Origin: a virus
Length of the DNA: 38,031 bases
IMG/VR virus record: IMGVR_UViG_3300042298_002127
Span: 1-38,031 of that record
Strand: one strand, 5' to 3'
Shown here: in pieces, positions 2,312-13,512 of the stretch
How positions within the stretch are numbered: the stretch's first letter is position 1
Layout: every line of letters begins with the position of its first letter
Translations under genes and position numbers: made by a program
The notes under the pieces: model-generated
The model's database searches: none
Told to the model about the DNA's origin: nothing
The model's input: the letters and a program-made list of their open reading frames with translations, nothing else

Positions 2312-3144
2312 CAGATCAGCCCCCGCACACGCGCCACACGCTCGATATGATCCAGGATCGAAGACGTCTCGTCACGCATCGCCACGTCCTCGCGCTTTGC
2401 GTTGTGCGCGCGGTATTCGGCCAGCGTCAGGTTGCGGCACCCAGCGCGGATCATCATGTCGGCGCCTTTGATCCAGCCGACAAAGCGATAACCGTCGATG
2501 CGCTGCCCGCCGTCAATGATGTGCTGCGAGGCCAGATTGGCGTCGGCCAGATTGGCGCCGGCCAGATAGGCGCGGGCCAGATCGGCGCTGGCCAGATTGG
2601 CGTCGGCCAGATTGGCGCCGGCCAGATAGGCGCGGGCCAGATCGGCGCTGGCCAGATTGGCGTGGGCCAGATTGGCGCCGGCCAGATCGGCGCGGGCCAG
2701 ATCGGCGCGGGCCAGATAGGCGCGGGCCAGATCGGCGCGGGCCAGATTGGCGCCGGCCAGATTGGCGCCGGCCAGATTGGCGCCGGCCAGATCGGCGCCG
2801 GCCAGATTGGCGTCGGCCAGATTGGCGCCGGCCAGATTGGCGCTGGCCAGATTGGCGTCGGCCAGATTGGCGCCGGCCAGAGTGGCGTCGGCCAGATTGG
2901 CGCCGGCCAGATTGGCGCTGGCCAGATTGGCGTCGGCCAGATTGGCGCCGGCCAGATAGGCGCGGGCCAGATCGGCGCTGGCCAGATTGGCGCGGGCCAG
3001 ATTGGCGCCGGCCAAATCCGCGCGGGCCAGATTGGCGTCGGCCAGATTGGCGCCGGCCAGATTGGCGCGGGCGCCACCGTCGCCCAAGCGCCACTTCCGA
3101 TGTTCTTCCAGGATGTGCGACAGGTTGTCGCGGGGGTTCGTCAT
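2311..3144 (-). CDS. Pentapeptide-repeat protein
   Basis: A 277-residue protein. Residues about 27-205 consist of some 36 uninterrupted A(N/D)LXX pentapeptides, the pattern that folds into a right-handed square beta helix. Residues 206-277 form a separate domain (GYRFVGWIKGADMMIRAGCRNLTLAEY) that I recall as a common C-terminal partner of phage pentapeptide proteins. Some pentapeptide proteins, such as MfpA and Qnr, mimic DNA and protect or inhibit gyrase; whether this one does cannot be read from sequence. The ATG at 3144 overlaps the upstream TGA (TGATG). The DNA repeats are so exact that copy number probably changes often. Confidence 0.9.
   Translation of the reverse strand: MTNPRDNLSHILEEHRKWRLGDGGARANLAGANLADANLARADLAGANLARANLASADLARAYLAGANLADANLASANLAGANLADATLAGANLADANLASANLAGANLADANLAGADLAGANLAGANLAGANLARADLARAYLARADLARADLAGANLAHANLASADLARAYLAGANLADANLASADLARAYLAGANLADANLASQHIIDGGQRIDGYRFVGWIKGADMMIRAGCRNLTLAEYRAHNAKREDVAMRDETSSILDHIERVARVRGLI
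2530..3068 (-). repeat. 15-base tandem array with 60-base and 75-base higher-order copies
   Basis: About 36 units of 15 bases (core GCCAGATTGGCG on the plus strand) encode the pentapeptide helix. A 60-base block is identical at 2531-2590, 2591-2650 and 2921-2980. A 75-base block beginning near 2801 is repeated next to itself with one substitution. Codon-level identity shows recent duplication rather than protein-level selection alone. Confidence 0.9.
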
Positions 3145-3428
3145 CACAGCCACTCCCGGCTAAGCCGCGCCTGTTCCAGCGCCTTGTCCATCTGGGCGAG
3201 GAACGCCTCGCTATCGGCCAGCAGGTAGGCATGCGGCGGAATTTCCGTGCTGTCGAAATCCCACGAGAACGTGCGCAAACTGGCCATCGCCACGACGAGC
3301 GCGGCTCGGTAACGCTGCATGTTGTGAATATCGTCGGCCGTCGCCACAATCAGCGGCGGTTCGGGGCGGTAGGTGCCGCCGGGGCCGGCATCGTAAGCGC
3401 GGGAGTTGAAGTTATCGGGGTAGGGCAT
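3144..3428 (-). CDS. Small phage protein of unknown function
   Basis: A 94-residue protein starting MPYPDNFNSRAYDAG. GGAGG lies 6 bases before this ATG, which fixes the start; an upstream in-frame extension would overlap the preceding gene. The C-terminal half is helical (DSEAFLAQMDKALEQARLS), the middle carries LIVATADDIHNMQRYR. No known domain was recognised. Its stop overlaps the start of the pentapeptide gene by one base, so both are made from one mRNA. Confidence 0.7.
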   Translation of the reverse strand: MPYPDNFNSRAYDAGPGGTYRPEPPLIVATADDIHNMQRYRAALVVAMASLRTFSWDFDSTEIPPHAYLLADSEAFLAQMDKALEQARLSREWL

Positions 3429-10136: not shown

Positions 10137-11236
10137 ACCGTATGAGCCGCAACCCCTGGATCGACGCATCACACGTCGCGCGCCCGATTATTCCGTTCTT
10201 GTATTGGCGTGACATCGCCCCGCGCCTTGACGCTGAGGACTTTGTAGAGGGTCTTTTGATTGATGCGGCCATGTCGGTTGTTTATGGCCAGTCTAATAGC
10301 GGCAAAACGTTCTGGTGCGGCGACCTCGCTTGCCACGTAGCCGCCGGCATCCCGTGGAACGGGCGCCAGGTGGAGCATGGCGCCGTGATCTGGCTCGCCA
10401 TGGAAGGCGCTTTCGGCATTTCAAACCGTATCGCCGCATGGCGCGCGGAACATGGCATCACGCACGACGTGCCGCTGGCCGTGGTGCCTGTGGCGTTAAA
10501 CCTGCTCGACCCGGAAGGCGACACAGACCCTCTGATTGAAGCCATCCAAGCCGCCGCTGAAGCCATGGGCGTGCCGGTGCGTCTGATCGTGGTGGATACG
10601 CTCTCCCGCGCCATCGCCGGGGGCAACGAAAACAGCCCGGAGGACATGGGCGCGCTAGTCACGAACGGCACCCGCATCCAGCAGGCCATCAAGGCGCATC
10701 TGATGTGGATTCATCATAGCGGGAAGGACGAGGCGAAGGGCGCACGCGGCCATAGCCTGTTGCGCGCTGCCACGGATACGGAAATTGAAATTAGCGCCGA
10801 AGGCCCCCAGCGCATGGCGCGGGTCACGAAGCAGCGCGAACTGGAATGCGACGGCACGTTCGGGTTTCAGCTTCGCATCGTGGAACTGGGCCAGAACCGG
10901 CGCGGAAAGCCGGTGACTACGTGCGTGGTGGAGCATGAGGGGCAGACCGCTATTCCCGCGCGGAAGAAGGTGGAGGGGCATAGCAAGCGGGCGCTTGAGG
11001 TGCTGTGCCATGTTATCGGTGCAAACGGCCGAACCGGGGAACGGGGGGTGCCAAGTGGGTATCCCAGCATCCCCGAAAAGTGGTGGCGGGATCGGTTCTA
11101 CGACGCCACGCCGGGCGAGCAGGACACGCGGAAGAAGGCATTCGGCCGGGCTTCGCAGTGGTTGGTGGAGCAGCGCATCGTGGGCATGGCCGAGGGGCGA
11201 GTGTGGATTATCAGCTACACGGAAGGCGGGACATGA
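10133..11236 (+). CDS. RepA-like AAA ATPase, probable replicative helicase
   Basis: A RecA-fold ATPase of the RepA/AAA_25 type. Numbering from the ATG at 10142 (364 residues), Walker A GQSNSGKT is at 49-56, an acidic switch AMEGA follows at 86-90, Walker B RLIVVDT is at 147-153, and the family signature HHSGKD plus ARGHSLLRAATDTEIE is at 191-215. Such hexameric ATPases unwind DNA at plasmid and phage origins. I place the start at TTG 10133: GGAGG lies 5 bases before it and it overlaps the upstream stop as TTGA, like other genes here; the ATG at 10142 is 14 bases from that site. The gene ends inside an array of repeats that may be its origin. Confidence 0.9.
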   Translation: MNRMSRNPWIDASHVARPIIPFLYWRDIAPRLDAEDFVEGLLIDAAMSVVYGQSNSGKTFWCGDLACHVAAGIPWNGRQVEHGAVIWLAMEGAFGISNRIAAWRAEHGITHDVPLAVVPVALNLLDPEGDTDPLIEAIQAAAEAMGVPVRLIVVDTLSRAIAGGNENSPEDMGALVTNGTRIQQAIKAHLMWIHHSGKDEAKGARGHSLLRAATDTEIEISAEGPQRMARVTKQRELECDGTFGFQLRIVELGQNRRGKPVTTCVVEHEGQTAIPARKKVEGHSKRALEVLCHVIGANGRTGERGVPSGYPSIPEKWWRDRFYDATPGEQDTRKKAFGRASQWLVEQRIVGMAEGRVWIISYTEGGT

Positions 11237-11384
11237 ACCGGGACATCAAACGGGACATGGGGGTTTTGCGGCGTGTCCCCAAATCGGGACATGGGGGGGG
11301 GGAGACATCCCCCTTTAGGGGGATGTCCCCCCTGTGTCCCGATGGAACGGGGGACGGGACATTTGAGGCGGTGTCCCGTGTCCC
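11228..11384. repeat. Iteron-like GGGACAT/TGTCCC array, candidate replication origin
   Basis: GGGACAT occurs at 11228, 11240, 11252, 11286 and 11356; the inverted form TGTCCC occurs at 11274, 11324, 11335, 11372 and 11379. The first three copies are spaced exactly 12 bases apart. The array includes a run of ten G (11293-11302) and a perfect hairpin (11304-11327). It begins at the last codons of the RepA-like ATPase gene. Repeated binding sites directly beside a replication initiator or helicase gene are the classic layout of an iteron origin. Function is inferred from arrangement. Confidence 0.7.
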
Positions 11385-11457
11385 GCCCACCCCAAACCCC
11401 CGCGCGCGCGCGTTGTGTCCAAACGGGAATAGCGGGGGTGGCGATGGGGTGGCGTGA
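11233..11457 (+). CDS. Doubtful 74-residue reading frame across the repeat array
   Basis: This frame starts with an ATGA overlap on the RepA-like stop, as real genes here do, but nearly all of its sequence is the GGGACAT array. The product is low-complexity and rich in arginine, glycine and proline (MNRDIKRDMGVLRRVPKSGH). I give it low weight; the repeats better explain the sequence. Confidence 0.25.
   Translation: MNRDIKRDMGVLRRVPKSGHGGGETSPFRGMSPLCPDGTGDGTFEAVSRVPPTPNPRARALCPNGNSGGGDGVA
11304..11327. other. Perfect hairpin inside the iteron array
   Basis: Arms GACATCCCCCT and AGGGGGATGTC are exact complements over 11 bases around TT. No run of T follows on either strand, so it is not a standard terminator. 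Its arms contain half-elements of the surrounding repeats. It could extrude as a cruciform or act as a single-strand loading site. Confidence 0.7.
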
Positions 11458-11542
11458 GGTGTTGGCGTTGCATGCCGAGTGCGAAACACTGACGACTGAA
11501 AGCGAGGAAATACCCGCCAAGCTGGGGGCGCTAGGTGGGTAG
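11444..11542 (+). CDS. Possible 32-residue peptide
   Basis: A short frame starting MGWREVLALHAECETL with a GGGGG stretch about 5 bases before the ATG. It follows the repeat array and overlaps the end of the doubtful frame at 11233. The amino-acid composition is ordinary and helical, which slightly favours a real gene. There is no other support. Confidence 0.35.
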   Translation: MGWREVLALHAECETLTTESEEIPAKLGALGG

Positions 11543-11574
11543 CGGCGAGGCGCGCGACGGGCTGTGGCGGTGTC

Positions 11575-11772
11575 CTACGCGGGCGGCGGCGGGTCATCCC
11601 GCATCGCCTGCCTGTGCGCCTCCAGCCGCCGCGCGAGCCACGCGGACACGTCGGGGGGCACGGTGTAGCGGTCGCGCGTCCAATTCATTACCGTTCCAGG
11701 CGGGCGGCCGAGAACCCGCGCGAGGTGGCGCAGGCTCCAGCCGAGTTCGGATAGGGTTTGGACGAGGGTCAT
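11575..11772 (-). CDS. Small helix-turn-helix protein
   Basis: A 65-residue protein. TLVQTLSELGWSLRHLARVL, then GRPPGTVMNWTRDRYTVPPD, fits a short HTH with VMNWTRDR as recognition helix, as in small phage and plasmid regulators. A GAGGA stretch lies about 8-10 bases before the ATG. It lies on the minus strand between the origin-like array and a second leftward gene, so it may regulate replication or the late switch. The proline-rich end (DDPPPPA) is probably disordered. Confidence 0.7.
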   Translation of the reverse strand: MTLVQTLSELGWSLRHLARVLGRPPGTVMNWTRDRYTVPPDVSAWLARRLEAHRQAMRDDPPPPA

Positions 11773-11806
11773 CGGCTCATCCTCGTCTCTCCTCGTTGGG
11801 GTGGGG

Positions 11807-11826
11807 GTGGGGGCCGGAGCCCCCAC
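11807..11826 (-). terminator. Strong hairpin between the two leftward genes
   Basis: GTGGGGGC and GCCCCCAC pair over 8 bases around a CGGA loop (plus-strand reading). It directly follows the stop of the gene at 11832-12068. No T run follows on the minus strand, so it may reduce rather than end read-through, or stabilise the mRNA end. Confidence 0.4.
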
Positions 11827-11831
11827 TTGGG

Positions 11832-12068
11832 TTAGTTCTTCGGCGCGTAGCTGCAAACGGTGGGATCGAACGCGATTTTGCTCATGGGAAAGATGCGGCA
11901 TTCAGTGCCGTCAAACAGCGTGAATACCAGCATCCCGGTGCTGTCGTCCTTGGCAACGGCGGTCACGCGCTTGGCAGTGGGCCAGCGGCGGCCGTTGTTG
12001 AAACTTTGGATCAGATCGCCGGGGCGAATGTTGGAAGCGCGGATAGTTGCGGTGAGCGTGTAGGTCAT
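11832..12068 (-). CDS. Small beta-barrel-like protein of unknown function
   Basis: A 78-residue protein with strands TLTATIRASNIRPGDLIQSF and KRVTAVAKDDSTGMLVFTLF, an arrangement seen in small barrel folds (SH3- or Hint-like: the RPGD turn followed by a strand). GGGAG lies about 9 bases before the ATG. It is the first gene of the two-gene leftward unit and is divergent from the gene at 12167. No function was recognised. Confidence 0.7.
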   Translation of the reverse strand: MTYTLTATIRASNIRPGDLIQSFNNGRRWPTAKRVTAVAKDDSTGMLVFTLFDGTECRIFPMSKIAFDPTVCSYAPKN

Positions 12069-12166
12069 CGTCGTGTCTCCCTCTCTGATAACGGCATCTT
12101 GCCGTCACGCCGCGCCGAAGTCAACGGCAAAATGCAGTCACGCGCGATTTTTCCGGAGGCCCGCCC

Positions 12167-12391
12167 ATGACCCACGACGATGTAATCCGCGCGATGTGCT
12201 GCATGGGCCGCCCCTGCTCCCGCCCAGATGCGTGCGTTGTGATGGACAAATCACGTTCCCACCTTGTAGATTTGCACTCGGCAGCGTCGGCGGTGGCGGA
12301 AATGCACGCCAAGGCGGTGCATGAGGCTTGCGCGGCGACGGTAACCGCGATTCAGCAGGCTTGGCGCGACAGGGGCAGCCATGTTCCCTGA
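12167..12391 (+). CDS. Small cysteine-containing helical protein
   Basis: A 74-residue protein with three early cysteines (MCCMGRPCSRPDAC) and a long helix (SAASAVAEMHAKAVHEACAATVTAIQQAW). GGAGG lies about 7 bases before the ATG. The 98-base gap upstream to the divergent leftward gene should hold its promoter, but I cannot assign one. No family was recognised. Confidence 0.65.
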   Translation: MTHDDVIRAMCCMGRPCSRPDACVVMDKSRSHLVDLHSAASAVAEMHAKAVHEACAATVTAIQQAWRDRGSHVP

Positions 12392-13098: not shown

Positions 13099-13512
13099 AT
13101 GGGTCATCGTTGCTGGGCCAAGCCTGGATCGCCGAACTACAGGCCACCGCGTGGGCTGGGGCATGGCGGCGAGGCTTCGGGCTGGCCAGCGCGCGGGGCG
13201 GGTAGTGGCGCGGCGATGGCGGCGCCGTTCAGCGCGGACAACCAGCCGCCGCCGGAGCATGTGAGCGCAGGAAAAATGGAAGCAACGGAATACCGGGAAA
13301 AGCTGCGAGAGCGGACGGCGCGGGCCATCGCGGCCTATGACGATGCGTTCGCGAGCGGCGATCCAAAGCTAGCGCTGTCGGCGGCGAAGCAACTTGAGGA
13401 CCGGCTTTACGGCGCTGCGAAGCAGACGATTGAGAACGTGCCCGATACGCGCACCGCAGAGGAAATCATGGCCGACATAGCCCGCAAGCGCCGCGAGGCT
13501 GGGCTTGAGTGA
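13099..13512 (+). CDS. Putative terminase small subunit
   Basis: A 137-residue protein immediately before the large terminase. Residues 1-55 are basic and glycine-rich (RPPRGLGHGGEASGWPARGAG, then PFSADNQPPPE), a pattern I recall from alphaproteobacterial phage proteins at this location; residues 62-110 are helical. Small terminases recognise the packaging site and load DNA on the large subunit. The ATG at 13099 has GGAG 7 bases upstream; the upstream in-frame TTG falls inside the terminator. The assignment rests mainly on position and size. Confidence 0.65.
   Translation: MGHRCWAKPGSPNYRPPRGLGHGGEASGWPARGAGSGAAMAAPFSADNQPPPEHVSAGKMEATEYREKLRERTARAIAAYDDAFASGDPKLALSAAKQLEDRLYGAAKQTIENVPDTRTAEEIMADIARKRREAGLE

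Follow-up and report, generated by a model that had tools for sequence, protein, structure and literature searches.

The window, by which we mean the whole stretch of DNA analysed here (38,031 nucleotides), is a 38-kb virus record that belongs to a tailed phage, with terminase, portal and major head protein genes at 13505, 15085 and 24451. The gene considered here (Table 1) encodes a RepA-like protein that matches Pfam AAA_25 (E = 8.5e-35) and the PHROG families phrog_2850/906. Its AlphaFold2 model (pLDDT 89, 43 aligned sequences) contains a RecA-fold motor part that superimposes on RSF1010 RepA (1g8y; TM 0.71 by target length, rmsd 2.9, 249 columns), placing the window's helicase within the RSF1010 RepA ATPase fold, followed by a predicted C-terminal winged helix with elements H279–295, E309–311, H312–322, H327–343, E347–350 and E353–356. 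Modelled alone, this second domain has the order H-E-H-H-E-E (pLDDT 86.5) and resembles the winged helices of CRP, ORC/Cdc6 and MCM at a generic level (VIA-align, Z about 8). A Foldseek search with the C-terminal domain alone returned nothing below E 0.001, so that its assignment goes no further than a winged helix of generic fold, and tblastn with the window's domain alone found no match among named phages and plasmids.

A first-pass annotation, made from the DNA letters alone, had described five GGGACAT and five TGTCCC elements within 157 bases, three of them spaced by 12 bases, together with a run of ten G and an exact hairpin with 11-base arms, in an array beginning at the stop of the RepA-like gene. 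This description was accurate in every respect. All ten elements are present, the first three GGGACAT copies are exactly 12 bp apart (TRF period 12, 11227–11259), the gene extends over the first heptamer with its last codons (stop TGA at 11234–11236), the G10 run occupies 11293–11302 and the hairpin arms lie at 11304–11314 and 11317–11327, with a longer imperfect dyad extending beyond the hairpin, which forms its tip. In 20,000 first-order Markov sequences the ten GGGACA/TGTCCC sites found within 157 bp were never approached, the maximum being five with the array's own base steps and three with those of the window, while the remaining GGGACA/TGTCCC hexamers across the 38 kb are isolated singles. 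The locus thus has one of the features expected of an iteron-type origin, namely multiple short repeats, above chance, adjoining the putative initiator gene. Folded as single-stranded DNA the array gives z = -4.5.

As to an AT-rich unwinding region next to the iterons, another feature of such origins, no long AT-rich stretch adjoins the array in the window sequence and only the TTTA/TTAA hairpin tip is AT-rich. GC skew is positive nearly everywhere in the window without a switch at 11.3 kb, hence of no use as an origin marker here. The next likely gene after the array, an HTH gene at 11575–11901 on the minus strand, is convergent with repA, so that the array sits between two 3' ends. Elsewhere in the window, a 15-bp unit, GGCCAGATTGGCGCC, is repeated 36 times in tandem at 2530–3072, inside a gene (2347–3228) for which a virion structural protein is the best match in PHROG.

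Table 1. Positions in the window of the helicase gene, its C-terminal domain and the elements of the repeat array
Feature	Position	Strand	Remarks
RepA-like replicative helicase gene (AAA_25 ATPase and C-terminal winged helix)	10142..11236	+	364 aa from ATG 10142
C-terminal winged-helix domain, residues 278-358, variable, putatively origin-reading	10973..11215	+	AF2; swapped with array between phages
Recognition helix H3 (predicted), residues 327-343	11120..11170	+	Lys331 codon 11132-11134, Lys332 codon 11135-11137
Whole iteron array	11228..11384	.	10 GGGACA/TGTCCC sites; arrays at same place in relatives
Iteron 1 GGGACAT	11228..11234	+	
Iteron 2 GGGACAT	11240..11246	+	
Iteron 3 GGGACAT	11252..11258	+	
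Inverted iteron TGTCCC	11274..11279	-	
Long imperfect dyad, TTTA tip	11283..11343	.	Inverted repeats; DNA fold; arms hold iterons and G10 run
Iteron GGGACAT, left arm of dyad	11286..11292	+	
Exact hairpin GACATCCCCCT-TT-AGGGGGATGTC	11304..11327	.	Conserved apex CCTTTAGG at 11312-11319
Inverted iteron ATGTCCC, right arm of dyad	11323..11329	-	TGTCCC from 11324
Inverted iteron TGTCCC	11335..11340	-	
Iteron GGGACAT	11356..11362	+	
Inverted iteron TGTCCC	11372..11377	-	
Inverted iteron TGTCCC	11379..11384	-	

Arrays and hairpins in related elements

Relatives were taken from IMG/VR and GTDB genomes, and the position of any array was scored without a preset motif, by finding the most over-represented hexamer in every 360-bp segment of each locus. 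The segment directly after the helicase stop was the top-scoring one in 43/62 loci (27–309 segments per locus), although many of the 62 are closely related and the 43 are therefore not independent events. The clade motifs found after the helicase are GGGACA, GGAGACA, CGGACA, CCGACA, CATCACA, CGCAACA, GCGAAACA, CGTGACA, CGGAAAC and GTAACA, with GCAACA and GAAACA as further iteron motifs among the relatives. Named elements with arrays include Roseobacter phage CRP-831 (TATAAA, ten copies) and plasmids of Caenibius (TCCGCA, twelve), Xanthobacter (GGGACA, seven) and Pseudorhodobacter (GTGACA, seven). Rhizobium phage 16-3 carries 14 copies of GTGACA (CGTGACA) after the stop of p101, with CCTTTAGG at +336. 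This array, of which we found no description in the literature searched, is a candidate origin of a phage long used in the laboratory and appears to belong to the same system as the window's, which would make phage 16-3 a cultured model.

Not all AAA_25 helicases have such an array, which is absent after the helicase-primases of several actinophages, Caulobacter and Microcystis as well as from a marine clade: none was found in Caulobacter GB2A, Mycobacterium phage Rich, Vibrio 1.210.O or Microcystis Mae-JY30, and none was detected after the gene in the AT-rich marine clade (L054–L083), despite the same ATPase. The members of that clade have a winged-helix-like tail, and their origin may lie elsewhere or have a degenerate motif. 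Two individual loci may also be mentioned. In a Roseomonas locus (L081, 7056–7287) the helicase frame continues through the array, whose iterons would encode a Gly-Thr/Val-Pro-rich tail. Similarity between the window and its relative L006 ends abruptly directly after the last iteron (11386 onward), which suggests that the array marks a mosaic boundary.

The apex of the hairpin, CCTTTAGG (usually CCCTTTAGGG), is found among the iterons in most array loci irrespective of the iteron motif, where it is located at +49 to +135, and it is normally present once per 5–13 kb locus. The stems vary yet stay complementary, with 69–88% pairing at offsets 5 to 8, counted from the hairpin centre, compared to 34–54% expected from column composition. 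The set used for stem pairing was selected on the apex, so that the invariance of the apex within it reflects this selection, whereas its position and once-per-locus occurrence do not. Comparable hairpins, with TTAA, TATA or CTTTAG at the tip, occur in more distant AAA_25 arrays.

Covariation of the iterons with the C-terminal domain

The first-pass annotation had asked whether GGGACAT changes in step with the ATPase among relatives. It does change in step with the RepA-like protein, but with the C-terminal winged helix and not with the ATPase domain. Among pairs with ATPase identity of at least 70%, those whose C-terminal domains are at least 60% identical have a motif in common in 235/235 cases, compared to only 7/106 where the C-terminal domains are less than 30% identical. 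The boundaries of the unit that changes can be seen most cleanly in two loci, L039 and L046, which over about 12 kb are 90–94% identical on both sides of a single divergent block (428/440 bp) that corresponds exactly to the C-terminal domain plus the array, with GGGACA iterons in one and CCGACA in the other. The same domain-plus-array swap was found in two further pairs (L038/L045 and L039/L044). As read from these alignments, what is exchanged between phages is the putative replication specificity, as one cassette of domain and array. A neighbouring 126-residue protein, whose binding to the array the annotation had suggested checking as well, is not required to explain the data.

The finer correspondence was examined in 62 distinct domains, an ATPase signature being required upstream, which excludes spurious frames. 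Within the first turns of the predicted helix H3, two neighbouring residues, Lys331 and Lys332 in the window, correspond to the first two bases of the iteron. Lys or Arg at the first position occurs with G at base 1 in 48/50 cases and Gln with C in 7/7, and at the second position Lys or Arg occurs with G at base 2 in 40/41, Ala with C in 5/5 and Val with T in 7/9. Loci fetched after the correspondence had been noticed agree (Gln with CGGACA, Lys/Arg with GGGACA, Val with GTAACA, Ala with GCAACA), although some of these overlap contigs already seen, making this only a partly independent test. Phylogenetically independent pairs drawn on trees built without the helix residues also agree, 4/4 and 2/2 and in the same direction throughout (6/6, two-sided sign test 0.03), which is a fair measure of how strong the evidence is once phylogeny is taken into account.

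The most telling evidence for the residue/base correspondence is a natural minimal pair, L540 and L541, whose proteins are 96% identical over their last 276 residues, with a Lys to Gln replacement in the helix. Their arrays differ by G to C at base 1 in 9/10 iterons, in both orientations, while 0/50 other iteron bases differ, compared to 16/126 spacer columns. Together with the above, this strongly implies that the helicase tail would contact the iterons directly, an inference for which there are no binding data. The code is nevertheless incomplete outside the two best-sampled subfamilies, where exceptions include Arg-Val with GAAACA in L051 and Arg-Thr with three motifs.

Interpretation as a replication origin

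We consider it very likely that replication of this phage starts at the array and that the helicase encoded directly upstream binds there. The annotation's proposal that the iterons mark where a RepA-type helicase loads is thus supported by the covariation in relatives, with origin function itself remaining an inference. The C-terminal winged helix of the RepA-like protein would read the iteron hexamers directly, the residue at the Lys331 position contacting base 1 and that at the Lys332 position contacting base 2. Iterons bound on both sides of the hairpin may gather helicase subunits in both orientations, and the hairpin with its invariant CCTTTAGG tip would be the fixed part, serving strand opening and/or priming or loading. 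The RecA-fold ATPase ring could then be loaded where the hairpin opens and unwind outward. What the comparisons described establish is the array and where it lies, the tight covariation of its iterons with two neighbouring helix residues, the cassette exchange and the conserved hairpin; melting, helicase loading, a bidirectional start and the exact job of the hairpin are inferences only, there being no replication data.

It is not possible to exclude from sequence alone that the array is instead an operator, at which the winged-helix tail of the helicase regulates repA or the next gene while replication starts elsewhere, as any direct binding would yield the same covariation. A same-strand gene indeed starts right after the array in some relatives (L039, L046). 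However, in the window no sigma-70-like promoter was found within 10900–12200 and the next likely gene is convergent, a repressor needs one or two sites rather than ten around a long dyad, and the protein in question is a replicative-type helicase; we therefore regard regulation as an unlikely primary role. We give very little credence to an RNA element that would terminate or attenuate transcription at the 3' end of the repA message; such an element could account for a strong GC-rich stem-loop directly after the gene and for the covarying stems, but not for the change of the iterons in step with the helix residues. The array region contains no T tract and no terminator-like site, and the asymmetric tip points either way with respect to the gene (19 vs 13 distinct sequences), which is not expected for a strand-specific RNA loop and argues for a DNA element.

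That the array serves another phage protein, as a partition (parS-like) or packaging site, seems more improbable still. Centromeres also use repeat arrays, and mycobacteriophage parS repeats are located downstream of repA in some phages (PMC7157519), but the motif described here changes in step with the tail domain of the helicase itself, the two being exchanged as a unit, and no ParA or ParB was recognised among the proteins scanned. Protein-level selection on a low-complexity tail or small protein (Gly-Thr/Val-Pro-Ser-Arg type) encoded by the repeats can be practically discounted, despite an open frame (11005–11457) that spans the array and the Roseomonas helicase frame that runs through its own, since the helicase ends at or before the array in most relatives, the iteron changes between L540 and L541 strike one and the same base whatever the frame or strand, the use of both orientations and palindromy are properties of DNA, and the window and L006 have identical iterons while the overlapping frame differs by non-synonymous changes. 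Conservation of that frame in relatives was what the annotation had named as grounds for refutation, and it is not seen; other relatives have arrays that differ in length and sequence.

For an origin read by its own helicase, SaPI Rep and SCCmec Cch2 are a direct precedent, as in these the C-terminal domain of the helicase recognises short iterons directly downstream of its own gene (PMC7581432), and by analogy the window most likely carries a self-recruiting helicase origin. The likeness to SaPI Rep, Cch and Cch2 consists of a helicase with a predicted C-terminal DNA-binding domain and an array at the stop codon, in the absence of binding or origin data for the window. The staphylococcal islands, however, use D5/DUF927-type AAA+ helicases, whereas the window encodes, in a tailed phage, a RecA-fold AAA_25 motor similar to RSF1010 RepA and not a D5/Primase_Cterm or DUF927 motor; its iterons also lie on both sides of a hairpin whose tip, CCTTTAGG, is invariant, and single residues can be seen to correspond to single bases.

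With RSF1010 (IncQ) the window shares the RepA helicase fold (1g8y), and the IncQ origin likewise contains iterons plus inverted repeats. The iterons of RSF1010 are read by a separate protein, RepC, whereas in the window the putative reader domain is fused to the C-terminus of the helicase, and no RepC-like protein was recognised among the window proteins scanned, which did not cover all ORFs. Lambda O and P1 RepA are similar in that short repeats adjoin or lie inside the initiator gene, but these initiators are not helicases and recruit host DnaB. The core origins of SV40 and the papillomaviruses contain inverted pentamer pairs. SV40 large T antigen and papillomavirus E1 are initiator helicases with their own origin-binding domain (PMC7581432), but they are SF3 helicases and the domain is N-terminal and of unrelated fold. 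Precedent for both covariation and exchange comes from the RepA/ori of Vibrio cholerae PLE, in which the origin iterons vary together with the DNA-binding domain, the two forming a specificity module that is swapped between otherwise similar elements (PMC8263062), although this is a RepA_N initiator with no helicase motor described in it, iterons of about 30 bp and a different architecture.

Probably, then, the window represents a large and previously undescribed family of origins in tailed phages and prophages/plasmids, in which a RecA-fold replicative helicase has its own iteron reader with a two-residue/two-base code, specificity shifts by concerted iteron change or cassette exchange, and the hairpin core remains fixed. 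No earlier description of such origins was found in the literature searched, which did not cover most subscription journals. If this is correct, such diversification is what selection would favour where elements compete for origins or interfere with each other through them, and the swaps suggest that replication specificity may pass between phages as a cassette, in a way comparable to the origin warfare of PLE and ICP1. Most tailed phages from metagenomes have no known origin, and a rule for locating them would be to look just after the AAA_25 helicase gene, with iteron bases 1 and 2 predictable from two amino acids in the best-sampled subfamilies. Natural minimal pairs also offer a means of studying the joint change of an initiator and all copies of its site.

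GGGACA arrays after VapE, DUF5906 and DUF927 helicases raised the idea that a common host factor reads GGGACA. We dropped this as unproven because the arrays there have another extended motif, CTGGGACA, and because the loci had been collected by the GGGACA pattern. Among the matches listed, the reversed control also matched abundantly, so that GGGACA was not shown to be special, although at least two sites on both strands were present in 47/120 GGGACA loci compared to 6/118 reversed-control loci; across 385 alphaproteobacterial genomes, the triple pattern matched in 20 and its reversed control in about 16, which is hardly a difference. In loci L090, L118, L136 and L484–L492, VapE-type primase-helicase genes are followed by CTGGGACA/TGTCCCAG arrays in both orientations, with up to 18 sites, so that the core hexamer also accompanies another type of helicase, unrelated to the first.
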